Of a stretch of DNA of 64,000 bases, positions 7,334 through 61,457 are shown one piece after another. The stretch lies in contig VBFH01000023.1 of assembly GCA_005883575.1 (NCBI GenBank), positions 186,001 through 250,000 on the forward strand, written 5' to 3'. The notes under the pieces were generated by a model. The model was not told the origin of the DNA. It made no database searches and saw only the letters and a program-made list of their open reading frames with translations. The translations under genes and the position numbers were made by a program. Numbering within the stretch: the first letter of the stretch is position 1; every line of letters begins with the position of its first letter. The stretch is from Chloroflexota bacterium. GTDB taxonomy: Bacteria > Chloroflexota > Dormibacteria > Dormibacterales > Dormibacteraceae.

Positions 7334-7339
7334 ATCTTA
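7334..7339 (-). promoter_or_regulatory. Candidate -10 box TAAGAT for moaD
   Basis: TAAGAT ends 6 nt before the moaD ATG. Its first three bases are the stop codon of the upstream SLOG gene. The spacing would give a leaderless moaDE transcript. No clear -35 was identified. Confidence 0.4.
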
Positions 7340-9233: not shown

Positions 9234-9239
9234 AGGCTA
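9234..9239 (-). promoter_or_regulatory. Candidate -10 box TAGCCT for pckA
   Basis: TAGCCT ends 6 nt before the pckA GTG and begins with the TAG stop codon of the upstream VWA gene. No ribosome-binding site is visible, which fits a leaderless start. Confidence 0.4.
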
Positions 9240-27831: not shown

Positions 27832-27843
27832 CCTCGATGAATG

Positions 27844-28764
27844 CTAATTGAGAAGGGTGAGCTGCTCCGGTTGAGGAGGTGGTTTCAGGATGACTCGCCT
27901 GCGGTCTGACACACCGTGGTGCGAGCGCAAACGCGCGACCTCGTGGAGCGTTTTTTCGCCAAACGACTGGGGAAGATAGGCGCGGTTGCGGTACGCGTGC
28001 TCGTAACGCGGCAGCAGCTCAGGCCAGTGATGGGCGAGGACCGAGAGGAAGTGCTCACGGGTGCCGTCCTTGAGGTGGAGCATGCCTGCCCACAATCCCG
28101 TGGCGCCCGCGGCGCGGGCTGCTTTGACGACCGCCTCCAGGAGCTCGGGCCTGTCCGAAAGTCCAGGCAGGATGGGCGCCATGCCCACGCCGACGTCAAT
28201 GCCGGCGGCGACGAGCTTTTCGATCGCACGCAGGCGCTGGCGTGGATGGGCCGTGCCTGGCTCGGTCTTGCGCCAGACCTCGTCGTCGAGCGTGGGGATG
28301 CTGAAGGTGATGTGCAGCTCGGCATGTCGCCCGAGGTCGGTCAAGACGTCGATGTCGCGGACGATCATCGGTCCGCGCGTGATCATCGCCGCGGGACTGG
28401 CGAAATCCCGGAACGCCTGCAGGCACTGCCGGGTGAGCTGAAAGCGGCCCTCAGCCGGTTGGTAGGGGTCCGTGGCGGCGCCGATCACCACGGTTTCCTT
28501 GCGCCATGAACGGCGCGCGAGCTCGCTGCGCAGGACGGACGCAACGTTGATCTTCACCCGAACCGTGCGGCCGTAGCGGTCATCCGACGGCCGGTCGGCG
28601 CGCAGCTCGAACGCCCGCACGTAGCAAAAGGCGCAGCGATGTTCGCAACCCGTGTACGGGTTGAGGGACCAGGCAAAGCCCATGTTCTTGACGGGATTGA
28701 GGGCCGACTTGCATGCGACCTGGACGTACTCGACATCGGCCAGACGAGGTTCGGGAGCAGCCAT
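27844..28764 (-). CDS. Radical SAM protein of the Rv2578c/spore photoproduct lyase-like type
   Basis: A 306-residue radical SAM enzyme with the [4Fe-4S] motif CEHRCAFC (CX3CX2C) near residues 37-44, in the context NPYTGCEHRCAFCYVR. A downstream GAATDPYQPAE segment is typical of the SplB-related family that includes mycobacterial Rv2578c. Substrate is unproven; DNA photoproduct repair is a reasonable guess. The start is ATG 28764, which lies 6 nt after a TATCAT box (28771-28776). A LexA-like palindrome abuts the box. nth lies just upstream, which supports a DNA repair context. Confidence 0.85.
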   Translation of the reverse strand: MAAPEPRLADVEYVQVACKSALNPVKNMGFAWSLNPYTGCEHRCAFCYVRAFELRADRPSDDRYGRTVRVKINVASVLRSELARRSWRKETVVIGAATDPYQPAEGRFQLTRQCLQAFRDFASPAAMITRGPMIVRDIDVLTDLGRHAELHITFSIPTLDDEVWRKTEPGTAHPRQRLRAIEKLVAAGIDVGVGMAPILPGLSDRPELLEAVVKAARAAGATGLWAGMLHLKDGTREHFLSVLAHHWPELLPRYEHAYRNRAYLPQSFGEKTLHEVARLRSHHGVSDRRRVILKPPPQPEQLTLLN

Positions 28765-39224: not shown

Positions 39225-39230
39225 AGCTTA
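39225..39230 (-). promoter_or_regulatory. Candidate -10 box TAAGCT for the Nudix gene
   Basis: TAAGCT ends 8 nt before TTG 39216. Its first three bases are the TAA stop codon of the upstream diguanylate cyclase gene. Confidence 0.4.
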
Positions 39231-55952: not shown

Positions 55953-55958
55953 TACGAT
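55953..55958 (+). promoter_or_regulatory. Candidate -10 box TACGAT for the LLM oxidoreductase
   Basis: TACGAT ends 8 nt before ATG 55967, and no ribosome-binding site is seen. This fits a leaderless start. Confidence 0.4.
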
Positions 55959-55966
55959 CTCGATCG

Positions 55967-56875
55967 ATGGCTGAGCTCGGGATCATGATCGAGGGCCAGG
56001 AAGGCCTCAACTGGGAGCGCTGGCGCCGCATCTGCGCCGACACCGAGCGCCTTGGCTTCGTGTCCCTGCGCCGGAGCGATCACATGATCTCGCTAATGGG
56101 CGACGCCGACCGGGACTGCATCGAGTGCTGGGAGTCTCTCGCCCTCACCGCGGAATGGACGAAGAAGATCGAGTTCGGTCCCATGGTCACCCCGATGACA
56201 TTCCGGCTCGCGGCGGTCCTGGCGAAGATTGCCGCCTCGGTCGACGCCCTTTCCGGTGGCCGCCTCCTGCTCGGCGTCGGCGCGGGCTGGAACGAAAACG
56301 AGCACTCGGTCTTCGGCATCCCGTTCTTCAGCGAGAAGGAGCGCTTCGAGAAGCTGGAGCGCGGGATCGAGACGATGCGCGACATCTGGAAGAAGACGAG
56401 CCCGAAGCCGGCGCGGAATCCGATTCCACTGTTGATCGGCGGCAAGGGGTCGAAACGGACGCTGCCTCTCGTCGCCCGTGAGGCGGCGGAGTGGAACTTC
56501 TCCCGGCTCGACCCCGAGATGTTTCGCGATCGGCGCGAGGCGCTGGATCATTGCTGCCGTGAGGTCGGTCGCGACCCGGCCACGATTCGCCGCTCGATGA
56601 TGTGCAGCTACCTGATCGGCCGGGACCGCTCGGACCTGCTCGAACGTGCTTCGCAGATGCGCGAGGTCATCCCGTCGATGAAACCGATGAGCCCCGAAGA
56701 GGTGCTCGACAACATGAAGGGCAGGTGGCTGGCGGGCACGCCAGAGGAGATCGCCGAGCGGATCCGGGAGCTGAGCCGGCTTGGCATCGATCTGTTCATG
56801 CTCCAGCATTTCCTGCTCGACGATTCCGACGGTCTCGAGCTTTTGGCCAAGGAAGTCCTGCCCGCCGTCGCCTAA
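55967..56875 (+). CDS. LLM-family F420-dependent oxidoreductase
   Basis: A 302-residue luciferase-like TIM-barrel protein: MAELGIMIEGQEGLNW at the start, LRRSDHMIS near 35, MVTPMTFRLAAVLAKIAAS near 75-92, and SGGRLLLGVGAGWNENEH near 95-112. These are typical of F420-dependent oxidoreductases, though FMN-dependent relatives share the fold. Substrate is unknown. The F420 operon elsewhere in the window makes F420 use plausible. It is followed at 10-nt spacing by an acyl-CoA dehydrogenase, so a role in lipid or acyl-CoA oxidation is possible. Confidence 0.87.
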   Translation: MAELGIMIEGQEGLNWERWRRICADTERLGFVSLRRSDHMISLMGDADRDCIECWESLALTAEWTKKIEFGPMVTPMTFRLAAVLAKIAASVDALSGGRLLLGVGAGWNENEHSVFGIPFFSEKERFEKLERGIETMRDIWKKTSPKPARNPIPLLIGGKGSKRTLPLVAREAAEWNFSRLDPEMFRDRREALDHCCREVGRDPATIRRSMMCSYLIGRDRSDLLERASQMREVIPSMKPMSPEEVLDNMKGRWLAGTPEEIAERIRELSRLGIDLFMLQHFLLDDSDGLELLAKEVLPAVA

Positions 56876-56878
56876 GCT
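56873..56878 (+). promoter_or_regulatory. Candidate -10 box TAAGCT for the first acyl-CoA dehydrogenase
   Basis: TAAGCT begins with the TAA stop of the LLM gene and ends 6 nt before GTG 56885. Confidence 0.4.
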
Positions 56879-56884
56879 GCTCCC

Positions 56885-58030
56885 GTGGACTTTGAGCTCA
56901 GCGGATCAGAACGAGCGTTTCGCGACGAGGTCAGGGCATGGCTGAAGGCCAACGCACCCAGCGACAGGGACGGCGACGGCGACCTGAAGGCGTTCATCGA
57001 CCGGCGCCGCGAGTGGCAGAGGAAGCTGCACGAAGCGGGCTATGTGGGCATCACCTGGCCCAAAGAGTTCGGCGGGCGCGGCGGCAGCTTCATGGACCAG
57101 CTGATCTTCAATGACGAGATGATCCTCGCTCACGCCCCCGAGCCCATCAACGTCATCGGCCTCGGCATGGGCGGGCCGGTCGTGATCGCGCACGGCACCC
57201 AGGAGCAGAAGAAGCGCTACCTGCCGCCGCTGCTCTCGGCGCAAGAGATATGGTGCCAGGGCTTCAGCGAGCCGAACGCCGGCAGCGACCTCTCAGGCCT
57301 GCAGACCCGAGCCGAGGACCAAGGCGATCACTATCTCGTCAACGGGCAGAAGGTCTGGACGACGCTGGCCCACGTCGCGAAGTGGTGCATGCTGGTCGCC
57401 CGCGAGCGGAAGGAGGCGAATCCACGCGAAGGCCTCACCTATCTGCTCGTGGACATGGAAAGCCCCGGCGTGGAGGTCAGGCCGCTGGTCCAGATCACCG
57501 GCGACGCGGAGTTCAACGAGATCTTCTTCAAGGACGTCAAGGTTTCGAAGTCGCAGATCCTCGGTGAGCCCGGGAATGGGTGGGCGGTCGCGATGACGAC
57601 CCTGCTCCACGAGCGCGGCACGCTCGGGCTCGCGCTCGCGACGCGGGCTCAGATCACCGCCTCCGAGCTCGCCGAGCATGCACGCAAGCTCGGGCGCGGC
57701 TCCGACCCTCTGGTTCGGCAGAAGATCGCGCAGCACACGATCGAGGCTCGCGCGCTGCAGCTCAACGGCTACCGGGCCGTGACCGCGGTGAAGCGAAGCG
57801 GGATTCCGGGGCCTGAGGGCTCGATCCTCAAGCTCATGTGGTCCGAGCTCAACCAGCGGATGACCGAAACCGCGATGGACATCGCCGGCCCGGCGTCGCA
57901 AGTTAAGGACGGCGACGGTTGGAAGTACCAGTTCCTGCGCTCGCGCGCCAACACGATCGAAGCTGGAACCTCCGAGGTTTTGCGCAACATCCTCGCCGAG
58001 AGAGTGCTGGGCCTGCCCCGCTCTCGGTAG
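56885..58030 (+). CDS. Acyl-CoA dehydrogenase (first)
   Basis: A 381-residue FAD-dependent acyl-CoA dehydrogenase. The FAD/substrate segment is CQGFSEPNAGSDLSGLQT near residues 124-141, followed by VNGQKVWTT near 154-162. The C-terminal helical domain has GPEGSILKLMWSELNQRM near 310 and the typical end YQFLRSRANTIEAGTSEVLRNILAERVLG. The catalytic Glu position is not assigned; the form resembles long-chain/FadE-type enzymes. Substrate chain is unknown. The GTG start follows the LLM stop by 9 nt. Confidence 0.94.
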   Translation: MDFELSGSERAFRDEVRAWLKANAPSDRDGDGDLKAFIDRRREWQRKLHEAGYVGITWPKEFGGRGGSFMDQLIFNDEMILAHAPEPINVIGLGMGGPVVIAHGTQEQKKRYLPPLLSAQEIWCQGFSEPNAGSDLSGLQTRAEDQGDHYLVNGQKVWTTLAHVAKWCMLVARERKEANPREGLTYLLVDMESPGVEVRPLVQITGDAEFNEIFFKDVKVSKSQILGEPGNGWAVAMTTLLHERGTLGLALATRAQITASELAEHARKLGRGSDPLVRQKIAQHTIEARALQLNGYRAVTAVKRSGIPGPEGSILKLMWSELNQRMTETAMDIAGPASQVKDGDGWKYQFLRSRANTIEAGTSEVLRNILAERVLGLPRSR

Positions 58031-58033
58031 ACT
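58028..58033 (+). promoter_or_regulatory. Candidate -10 box TAGACT for the DHA2 transporter gene
   Basis: TAGACT begins with the TAG stop of the acyl-CoA dehydrogenase gene and ends 7 nt before GTG 58041. Confidence 0.4.
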
Positions 58034-58040
58034 CGGTTCA

Positions 58041-59642
58041 GTGACCGCAGTCGCCTCCAAGGCGGCCGGCGCAACCGCGACGAAGGGCATCAACCATGGC
58101 GTGATGACCGTCTTCGCCGGTCTGATGCTCGGCTCGCTGATCGCCTCCCTCAACATGACGCTGGTCGCGCCCGCGCTGCCCACGATCGTGGCGGAGCTGG
58201 GCGGGCTGGCCGACTACAGCTGGATCCCGATCTCGGCCATGCTGGCCTCGACCATCGTCACGCCGGTCGCGGGCAAGCTGTCCGACGTCTACGGCCGCAA
58301 ACCTCTCTACATGACCGGGATCGTCGTCTTCGCAGTCGGCTCAGCGCTGTCCGGCCTCGCGCCCAACTTCTGGTTTCTGGTCTTCGCGCGATTTGTCCAG
58401 GGCGCCGGGATGGGCTTCATCATGCCCCTCTCGCAAGCGATCATCGGCGACATCATCTCGCCGCGCGAACGCGGGAAATATCAGGGCATGATGGGCGCAT
58501 CTTTCGGCCTGGCGTCGATCGTCGGCCCCGCGGCCGGCGGATTCATCACCGATCACTTCACGTGGCGATGGCTGTTCTTCGTCAATCTCCCAATCGCGGT
58601 TCTGACACTGGTCGTCATCTGGTTTTTCATGCACGTCCCCAATGAGCGGCGCAAGCATGCCATTGACGTCTGGGGCAGCGTGACCCTGTCGCTCGGGATC
58701 GCCGCGACCCTGCTCGCCACGGTGTGGGGCGGGGTGCAGTACCCGTGGAGCTCGTGGCAGATTGTCGGCCTGTATTCGGCCGCGGGAGTGCTGCTCGCCG
58801 CCTTCGTATGGATCGAGATGCACGCGCCTGAACCCGTGCTGCCCCTCAGGCTCTGGGCGAGCACCGTCTTCACCTTCTCGAACATCGCCAGCGTCGGGGT
58901 GGCGATGTCGATGTTCGGCGCCATCTTCTTCCTACCGGTGTTCGTGCAGGGCGTGGTCGGCAACAGCGTTACGAACTCCGGCGCGATCCTCGTGCCGATG
59001 CTCGTGGCGATGATCGTCACGAGCGTGGTCGGTGGGCAGCTCATATCCCGCACCGGACGCTACAAGGGACAGCTGCTCCTGGGGCTTGCGATGATGGGCG
59101 TCGGGTACTACCTGCTCTCGACCTTCAACGTCAACACAAGCAACCAGCAGGTGATCGTGGCGATGATCCTGCTCGGTCTTGGACTCGGCGCCTGCATGCA
59201 GACCTACGTCCTTGTGGTGCAGAACTCTGTCAGCCGCCAGGACATGGCCGTGGCCACATCCGCGACGCAGCTGTCGCGCTCGATCGGAGCGGCGATCGGG
59301 CTGGCCATCCTCGGAACCCTTCTAACCCAGGGCATGGCGAGCTCGATGGCCCGATACTTGCCCGCCTCGGCGCTGCAGAGACTCCAGTCGTCAGGCGGTG
59401 GCGCGACGGCGACCGCGGTGTTCGACCCCGCGAAGCTGGCGAACCTGCCGCCGGCGATCGAGCTGGGCATCCGGCATGGGCTCGCGGATGCCCTCCATCC
59501 GGTCTTTCTGGCCGGGGTCCCGATCATCGCCATCGCCTTCGTGGCGACCCTGTTCATCAAAGAGCTTCCGCTTCGCCAGACGGCTCACGTGACCGCCGGC
59601 CGACAGGCCCCCGCAGCGACCGAAAACTCACCTTTGAGCTGA
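58041..59642 (+). CDS. DHA2-family (EmrB/QacA-like) MFS drug exporter
   Basis: A 533-residue permease with about 14 helices. The loop 2-3 motif GKLSDVYGRKPLYMTG is near residue 80. Antiporter motif C-like sequence follows in helix 5 (SIVGPAAGGFITDHFTWRWLFFVNLPI near 155-180), which is typical of DHA2 exporters. It would pump toxic organic compounds out by proton antiport. The C-terminus is a short hydrophilic tail. The substrate is not predictable. It lies between two acyl-CoA dehydrogenase genes with 10-nt spacing. Confidence 0.93.
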   Translation: MTAVASKAAGATATKGINHGVMTVFAGLMLGSLIASLNMTLVAPALPTIVAELGGLADYSWIPISAMLASTIVTPVAGKLSDVYGRKPLYMTGIVVFAVGSALSGLAPNFWFLVFARFVQGAGMGFIMPLSQAIIGDIISPRERGKYQGMMGASFGLASIVGPAAGGFITDHFTWRWLFFVNLPIAVLTLVVIWFFMHVPNERRKHAIDVWGSVTLSLGIAATLLATVWGGVQYPWSSWQIVGLYSAAGVLLAAFVWIEMHAPEPVLPLRLWASTVFTFSNIASVGVAMSMFGAIFFLPVFVQGVVGNSVTNSGAILVPMLVAMIVTSVVGGQLISRTGRYKGQLLLGLAMMGVGYYLLSTFNVNTSNQQVIVAMILLGLGLGACMQTYVLVVQNSVSRQDMAVATSATQLSRSIGAAIGLAILGTLLTQGMASSMARYLPASALQRLQSSGGGATATAVFDPAKLANLPPAIELGIRHGLADALHPVFLAGVPIIAIAFVATLFIKELPLRQTAHVTAGRQAPAATENSPLS

Positions 59643-59649
59643 TAGCGGC

Positions 59650-59678
59650 TTGTCTTGCGGCGGCACGCAAGCCAGAAT
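59650..59678 (+). promoter_or_regulatory. Promoter candidate TTGTCT-17-CAGAAT, leaderless
   Basis: The -35 TTGTCT (59650-59655) and -10 CAGAAT (59673-59678) have a 17-nt spacer. GTG 59686 starts 7 nt after the -10 box, which supports this start over TTG 59650. Confidence 0.5.
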
Positions 59679-59685
59679 TCCGCTC

Positions 59686-60315
59686 GTGAATCAGGTGTCC
59701 GGCCGCGAACGGCTCGTCTGGTCCTTCTGGGCGGCGGCCGCCATCGCGGCGGTGGGAGGCGTGCTGCCCCTGCTGTTCGCCGGGACCGCGAGCCGGATGG
59801 CAACCGTGGCCATTCCGTTCGCAATCGGCGCCGCAGCGCTCGCAGCGTGTGGATTCCTGCACGGCCAGGGACGCGTCGTGTCCGCCGCCCTCTACTTCCT
59901 CGCCGGCCTCGCGCTCGTGTACGGGATTCTGGCGATGTTTGCGATCCCGCTCGAGCTGGCGGTCCTAGGCACCTGCGACCCTTCGCCGGCGCCGTGCGTC
60001 AGCGGCTTTGGGCGCCCACTGACCGTGGGCGAGAACACCGGCATGGGTTTTGCCGCAGGGTTCGGACTGGCCGCGCTGTTCATCGGCTTCTTCGGCTTGA
60101 TGGTGGTCTTCCGGAAACCGCTGCTGCCGCCTTCTGTCCCGTCGGCGAGAAAAATGCCGCCGGTCGGGAGCGCCGGGCCCGCGCCGGCTGTGGCGCAAGC
60201 TCCACGTAACGGCTCCGCACCGGAGGCGGTCGAGGACGAGCCCGAGCTGCCGGCGCACGAAGAGGAGGAGGTCCCGGAGCTGCCTCCGCACGAGTCAGAT
60301 CCTCCCACCGCCTAG
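59686..60315 (+). CDS. Four-helix membrane protein with acidic C-terminal tail, unknown function
   Basis: A 209-residue protein with four hydrophobic helices (about residues 10-30, 38-58, 65-85 and 115-138). A loop with two Cys (CDPSPAPC) lies between helices 3 and 4 and may form a disulfide outside. The C-terminal tail (150-209) is Pro- and Glu-rich with repeated PELP/PELPPHE-like units. No family is recognised. GTG 59686 is chosen by promoter spacing; TTG 59650 is an alternative. Confidence 0.68.
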   Translation: MNQVSGRERLVWSFWAAAAIAAVGGVLPLLFAGTASRMATVAIPFAIGAAALAACGFLHGQGRVVSAALYFLAGLALVYGILAMFAIPLELAVLGTCDPSPAPCVSGFGRPLTVGENTGMGFAAGFGLAALFIGFFGLMVVFRKPLLPPSVPSARKMPPVGSAGPAPAVAQAPRNGSAPEAVEDEPELPAHEEEEVPELPPHESDPPTA

Positions 60316-60318
60316 ACT
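60313..60318 (+). promoter_or_regulatory. Candidate -10 box TAGACT for the second acyl-CoA dehydrogenase
   Basis: TAGACT begins with the TAG stop of the membrane-protein gene and ends 8 nt before GTG 60327. The hexamer is identical to that at 58028. Confidence 0.4.
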
Positions 60319-60326
60319 GCCTCTCC

Positions 60327-61457
60327 GTGGATTTCGCATTCTCCGAAGAGCAGGAGATGCTTCGCCGCTCGGCGCGCGAGTTCCTGGCCAAGGAATGCAG
60401 CCCGAAGATCGTACGCAGGCTGATGGAGGGCGGCGACGGCTACGATCCGGCGCTCTGGAAGAAGATCACAGACCTCGGGTGGACCGCGTTGGGGATCCCT
60501 GAGGCATACGGCGGGGTCGGTACGTTCCTGGACCTGATCGTGGTCCTCGAGGAGGCGGGAAGAGCGCTGCTGCCGGGCCCTTTCTTCTCGACCATGGCCC
60601 TTGCGGTCCCGGTGCTGATCGAAGCGGGCACCGAGGTTCAAAAGAAGGAGGCGCTCAACGCCATCGCGGTGGGTTCCGCTCGGGCTACCCTTGCCTTCAC
60701 GGAGCCGTCCGGCAGGTGGGACGCAGGCGGCATCGGCCTCAAGGCCACGCAAGCCGGCGGCGGTTGGCGGCTCGACGGCGTCAAGCTGTTCGTCCCTGAC
60801 GCGGAGCGGGCTGACTACACGGTCGTGGTGGCGCGCACACGCGGTGAAGGCGAGGATGGCATCACGCTCTTCCTGGTCAAGGGCAAGCCGGCCGGGATGA
60901 GCGTTAGGCCGCTCGAGACCCTCGATATGACGCGGCGGTGGAGCGAAGTTCGCTTCGACGGCGTTCAGCTCGACGCCGAGACGATGATGGGAGCGCCCGG
61001 CAAGGCGTGGCCGCGCCTGAAGCGCGCTCTCGAATGGGCGACGGCGGCGCTGTGCGCGGAGATGGTGGGCGGGGTGCAAAAGGTCCTCGAGACTTCAACC
61101 GAGTATGCGAAGACACGGCACCAGTTCGGCAAACCGATCGGCATCTACCAGGCCGTCTCGCACAAGCTCGCGGACATGCTCGTGCTGTCCGAGAGCGGAC
61201 GCTCAGCAACCTACTACGCGGCATGGGCGGTCGACGCCGACGCCAGCGACCGCGCGCTGGCCTCGTCGATGGCGAAGGCATATGTGTCGGACGCGTATCG
61301 CAAGGTCGCAGGCGACGGTATCCAGGTGCACGGCGGCATCGGCTTCACCTGGGAGCACGACATGCATTTGTACTTCAAGCGCGCGAAATCATCGGAAGTG
61401 ACGCTCGGTGACGCGACCTATCATCGCGAGCTCGTCGCGCAAGCTCTCGACCTCTAG
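60327..61457 (+). CDS. Acyl-CoA dehydrogenase (second)
   Basis: A 376-residue acyl-CoA dehydrogenase of the shorter, more divergent kind often found as one partner of heteromeric FadE/ACAD pairs. The start MDFAFSEEQEMLRRSAREFL is typical. The FAD segment is degenerate (TLAFTEPSGRWDAGG) compared with the first dehydrogenase. The C-terminal RHQFGKPIGIYQAVSHKLADM and VHGGIGFTWEHDMHLYFKRAK are conserved. The two dehydrogenases may form a heteromer, as in steroid side-chain degradation. This is inference from pairing and sequence type. Confidence 0.92.
   Translation: MDFAFSEEQEMLRRSAREFLAKECSPKIVRRLMEGGDGYDPALWKKITDLGWTALGIPEAYGGVGTFLDLIVVLEEAGRALLPGPFFSTMALAVPVLIEAGTEVQKKEALNAIAVGSARATLAFTEPSGRWDAGGIGLKATQAGGGWRLDGVKLFVPDAERADYTVVVARTRGEGEDGITLFLVKGKPAGMSVRPLETLDMTRRWSEVRFDGVQLDAETMMGAPGKAWPRLKRALEWATAALCAEMVGGVQKVLETSTEYAKTRHQFGKPIGIYQAVSHKLADMLVLSESGRSATYYAAWAVDADASDRALASSMAKAYVSDAYRKVAGDGIQVHGGIGFTWEHDMHLYFKRAKSSEVTLGDATYHRELVAQALDL

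Follow-up and report, generated by a model that had tools for sequence, protein, structure and literature searches.

Stop codons that coincide with putative leaderless −10 boxes in a genome of the phylum Dormiibacterota

In an array of five same-strand genes from an uncultured soil bacterium of the phylum Dormiibacterota, three GTG start codons follow the previous gene's stop codon by only a few nucleotides. The question this raises is whether such a stop codon can at the same time supply the first half of the next gene's promoter. The array lies in a window of 64,000 nucleotides (G000:C94:186001-250000), which is the whole stretch of DNA that the earlier note refers to, taken from a 3.6-Mb draft genome in 127 contigs. 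Of the named relatives, those closest to it come from soil metagenomes and bear the labels Chloroflexi CF_* or Candidatus Dormiibacterota. We searched the window for Rfam families and tRNA and the assembly for a 16S gene, and found none.

The array and the sites in the window

The earlier note on this DNA had listed six stop codons that open a TANNNT hexamer shortly before a start codon, three of them at successive junctions of the array. On rereading the sequence we find all six hexamers where they were placed (Table 1), and none of them (TAAGCT, TAGACT, TAGACT, TAAGAT, TAGCCT, TAAGCT) contains a GGAGG-like run. The array sites occupy three of its four junctions but are not strictly consecutive. 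A −10-like box stands at leaderless distance upstream of all five array genes, and for three of the five it falls on a stop codon. Over the whole window, T is found at the sixth position from the stop (+6) in 6 of the 7 same-strand TAA/TAG junctions whose called start lies 12–16 nt away; the sixth of these is the stop at 27846.

The odd junction in the array leads from the MFS transporter gene to the gene at 59686, and has TGA as its stop, a spacing of 46 nt and the hexamer CAGAAT 13 nt before GTG. This hexamer could be read as a leaderless −10 box in which C replaces the first T; unlike the other boxes, it is accompanied by a visible −35. The pair looks similar in most of the listed orthologs, and in one of them (L099) the aligned box is TAGATT. 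From its hydrophobic segments, the product of the gene at 59686 is likely a membrane protein. Outside the array, the TTG start of the NUDIX gene is uncertain, and the gene caller made no call of the 39230 junction. The site at 27841 is ambiguous because GAGG sits just before the start.

Table 1. Genes of the array and hexamers discussed in the text (window coordinates).
Feature	Position	Strand	Remarks
TAAGAT, SLOG-family gene stop and putative −10 of ThiS/MoaD gene	7334–7339	−	ThiS/MoaD ATG 7327
TAGCCT, VWA-domain gene stop and putative −10 of PEPCK gene	9234–9239	−	PEPCK GTG 9227
TAGCAT on stop	27841–27846	−	15 nt upstream of ATG; ambiguous
TAAGCT on stop, NUDIX gene	39225–39230	−	14 nt upstream of possible TTG 39216
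TACGAT, putative leaderless −10, non-stop	55953–55958	+	14 nt upstream of monooxygenase ATG 55967
Luciferase-like monooxygenase gene (PF00296)	55967–56875	+	stop TAA 56873–56875 opens next putative −10
TAAGCT, stop and putative −10	56873–56878	+	then 6 nt; first T 12 nt before GTG 56885
Acyl-CoA dehydrogenase gene 1	56885–58030	+	GTG start
TAGACT, stop and putative −10	58028–58033	+	then 7 nt; first T 13 nt before GTG 58041
MFS transporter gene	58041–59642	+	GTG start, TGA stop
TTGTCT, 17 nt, CAGAAT; −35/−10-like pair	59650–59678	+	off stop codon; read by eye
Unknown gene, without Pfam match	59686–60315	+	GTG start
TAGACT, stop and putative −10	60313–60318	+	then 8 nt; first T 14 nt before GTG 60327
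Acyl-CoA dehydrogenase gene 2	60327–61457	+	GTG start

The sixth base after the stop codon and the hexamer genome-wide

Because TA comes free with TAA and TAG, the earlier note had singled out the final T and its spacing as the informative part of the motif. We counted this base in 1.46 Mb of the 3.6-Mb genome, sampled in stretches, with 1361 called genes and 995 same-strand junctions. The gene caller relied on a self-trained coding model and took starts from the coding signal only, leaving upstream signals unused. After TAA/TAG stops, T at +6 was enriched at a spacing of 12–16 nt only (25/51 vs 47/273 at ≥17 nt, Fisher p = 3e-6), and it occurred in 0 of 17 junctions whose next start was 9–11 nt away. 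Within the same 51 junctions, the neighbouring positions 4, 5, 7 and 8 carried T in 8, 7, 11 and 6 cases. After TGA the frequency of T at +6 was flat, with 3/14 at 12–16 nt vs 45/255 at ≥17 nt (p = 0.47).

T at +6 also depends on what else precedes the start. At 12–16 nt it was found in 23 of 35 junctions without a Shine-Dalgarno sequence vs 2 of 16 with one (p = 6e-4), which is to say that a Shine-Dalgarno is missing from 23 of the 25 cases of stop sharing. Given a background of 17% T at +6, about 16 junctions in 1.46 Mb are in excess, and by extrapolation the whole genome perhaps holds about 40. A second genome of the same genus (G004) behaves alike (8/15 vs 9/75, p = 0.001). More distant genomes, one from another genus of the family (G022) and one from another family of the class (G027), gave 1/5 and 2/7, and 5 and 7 usable junctions are too small a sample to count for or against the effect. 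The coincidence of stop codon and TANNNT is real and above chance. A reversed-pattern control of the genome search was set aside, as codon bias makes that comparison unfair.

TAA and TAG are also over-represented when the next start is 3–11 nt away (73/105 vs 273/528 at ≥17 nt), there without T at +6, and we rejected the stop-codon excess as promoter evidence on that ground; part of the 3–11 nt excess likely reflects a start caller that favours overlapping starts at TGA. Runs of at least three neighbouring, putatively leaderless genes numbered 2 vs 0.6 expected by shuffling (p = 0.11). Since runs are no commoner than in shuffled orders, the arrangement is a property of single genes and not of a special type of operon. 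We rejected clustering into runs because the base rate yields those observed, and the proposal of an operon with a promoter for every gene, as a distinct structure, is not borne out for the same reason.

What, then, is the hexamer? Among divergent genes, TANNNT at 12–16 nt is found upstream of 86 of 348, vs 2–14 (about 9 per window) in other 5-nt windows, and it is their dominant upstream signal, at the same distance as at the stop sites. Because divergent genes have no same-strand upstream stop and peak at this same distance, TANNNT is most readily taken as the leaderless −10 box of this genome. At called starts it is present in 182 of 1361 genes and a Shine-Dalgarno-like word in 290 of 1361, yet only 7 genes have both. 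When we aligned the 182 TANNNT genes on the motif and sought a −35 consensus, we found none; this fits leaderless promoters elsewhere but supplies no second signal. In Actinobacteria and in Deinococcus, leaderless genes have TANNNT as their −10 box about 12 bp before the start (PMC3160421, PMC3898074, PMC12340547), and two marks of TA-led leaderless genes, this hexamer at this distance and the missing Shine-Dalgarno, are found here.

Orthologous junctions and the MFS transporter

Acyl-CoA dehydrogenase 1 is preceded by TANNNT in 32 of 32 distinct orthologs, 31 of them at 12–15 nt (these and the following ortholog counts come from related, non-independent sequences). In only 20 of the 32 does the stop of an upstream frame (80 codons or more) also form part of the hexamer. 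When the alignment is anchored on the start codon, the gene tree requires 6, 3 and 6 changes in columns −12, −11 and −7, and 7–18, mostly 9–18, in the remaining columns from −25 to −1, the lowest being −6 with 7. An alignment centred on the motif necessarily gives zero changes for T1, A2 and T6, and we therefore rely on the start-anchored counts alone as evidence.

For acyl-CoA dehydrogenase 2, TANNNT is present in 21 of 24 orthologs, and in 12 it doubles as the stop codon of a long ORF upstream. Its third base makes a stop (TAA/TAG) or does not (TAC/TAT), with TA and T constant. The three orthologs without the hexamer all score a Shine-Dalgarno, two as AAGGAG and one as GGAG. The start-anchored columns show no dip for this gene because the spacing differs between loci. 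Monooxygenase orthologs, whose counterpart in the window has its box off a stop codon, carry TANNNT 11–17 nt before the start in 22 of 30. Since the motif is kept where the stop is elsewhere, the promoter would be the conserved part and the stop borrowed. Taken as a whole, the comparison of relatives strongly supports a packing of stop codon and putative −10 box.

The start of the MFS transporter gene varies with its neighbour. Where it follows acyl-CoA dehydrogenase 1 directly (≤16 nt), TANNNT falls on the stop in 15 of 17 loci, vs 3 of 16 otherwise; the p-value of this contrast (9e-5) ignores relatedness, and on the tree adjacency switched about four times. One group of relatives has a MarR-family gene between the two; in these loci the start of the MFS gene mostly overlaps marR by four bases (ATGA), and TANNNT is missing. 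In a further locus (L105), TAGACT lies 12 nt before the GTG of the MFS gene without coinciding with the acyl-CoA dehydrogenase 1 stop. One transporter gene thus appears to be wired in two ways in relatives with and without marR.

The marR gene itself (L098:7147-7661; also in L093, L097, L099-L101, L103, L104, L106 and L130, and absent from the window locus) has its ATG within the last bases of an ATAGTT...AACTAT-like inverted repeat, and several of these loci show a TA-box about 15 nt before the ATG. To judge by these sequences, marR seems to have an autoregulated leaderless promoter whose operator lies on the start codon.

Shared stop codons, alternative readings and known systems

We consider it very probable that the sites are compact leaderless promoters whose TA is supplied by the upstream stop, so that the first half of the promoter is the last codon of the previous gene. 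The leaderless reading put forward in the earlier note is upheld by the count of T at +6 with its clean TGA control, by the signal of the divergent genes and by the conservation among orthologs. On this model, leaderless mRNAs would serve a sizeable minority of genes. TANNNT, with its first T 12–16 nt before the start codon, would be recognised by RNA polymerase carrying the housekeeping sigma factor, and transcription would begin at the start codon or within a few nucleotides of it, with neither a Shine-Dalgarno nor a visible −35. Where same-strand genes are packed at the right distance, TAA or TAG would give the TA, and selection would be needed only on the T at +6. The stop would then be dual, ending translation of the first gene and starting transcription of the second, and each gene of the array could be transcribed independently.

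An ordinary operon would look much the same at first sight. Its genes would share one polycistronic mRNA, translated by re-initiation or from weak Shine-Dalgarno sequences, and T at +6 would reflect stop-codon context (termination efficiency) or chance; the same-strand order, the gaps of 9–12 nt and the lack of a strong terminator between genes (3 found vs 2.4 in shuffles) would all be expected. However, stop-codon context or chance would hardly make T at +6 vary with the distance to the next start, confine the excess to TAA/TAG and to a single range of spacings, set it against the Shine-Dalgarno, or preserve the motif in orthologs whose stop is elsewhere, and we regard this explanation as highly improbable. 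We give even less credence to the idea that the TA-rich hexamer acts in ribosome binding or mRNA processing and is no promoter. Its closeness to the start codon and the missing −35 would suit such a role, but its consensus and distance of about 12 bp are those of leaderless −10 boxes in Actinobacteria and Deinococcus (PMC3160421, PMC3898074, PMC12340547), and TANNNT peaks upstream of divergent genes as well.

It is a distinct possibility, although we lean slightly away from it, that both hold: the genes would be co-transcribed, and the TANNNT boxes, as promoters within the transcription unit, would contribute additional leaderless mRNAs in certain conditions. The short gaps without terminators fit this, and in M. 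tuberculosis internal starts are frequent, being present in 26% of its CDSs (PMC3898074). Most of the downstream genes, however, lack a Shine-Dalgarno, and translation from a long mRNA would presumably be poor. Such a combination refines the leaderless-promoter explanation and is no alternative to its core. A further extension, which we consider unlikely, is that stops in this lineage are jointly selected, with their position and identity shaped by the promoter of the downstream gene. Operon-like arrays would then consist of independent transcription units strung together with hardly any intergenic DNA, and ribosomes terminating on one gene would encounter the polymerase that loads for the gene after it.

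If stop codons and leaderless promoters overlap as we propose, this matters for annotation. Operon prediction usually reads short same-strand gaps as co-transcription; since a gap of 9–13 nt could hold a −10 promoter in leaderless-rich genomes, operon and start-codon calls would err for a measurable number of genes. With two of the three conserved bases preset, the arrangement also points to stops as places where a promoter can arise at little cost.

Parts of this picture are known. Overlap of stop codon and Shine-Dalgarno in short spacers has been described (PMC2784483); there a ribosome-binding site is shared on one mRNA, whereas here the shared element would be a promoter element in DNA. 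The mark of that overlap, pairing with the 16S tail, is not seen at our six sites, as judged by the absent GGAGG-like run. Stops running into a Shine-Dalgarno do occur in the same genome (C54, C16 and C35), for example as TAAGGAG and TAGGAGG, 12–13 nt from the start. We sought the term 'stop codon' in PMC3160421, PMC3898074 and PMC12340547 and found no mention, and in the open-access literature we did not find sharing of stop and −10 box as an enriched arrangement. As leaderless TANNNT and stop/Shine-Dalgarno sharing are known already, the novelty of stop/−10 sharing is modest. The closest systems are the TA-led leaderless bacterial genes of Zheng et al. 2011 (PMC3160421), the leaderless promoters of M. 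tuberculosis (Cortes et al. 2013; PMC3898074) and the −10 motif of Deinococcus (PMC12340547). They have in common with our sites TANNNT about 12 bp upstream, no Shine-Dalgarno and a high-GC genome, and as reported for M. tuberculosis (PMC3898074) there is no −35 consensus. Unlike in those systems, the TA here is often the stop of the preceding gene, so that the putative promoter would fit into a gap of 9–13 nt.
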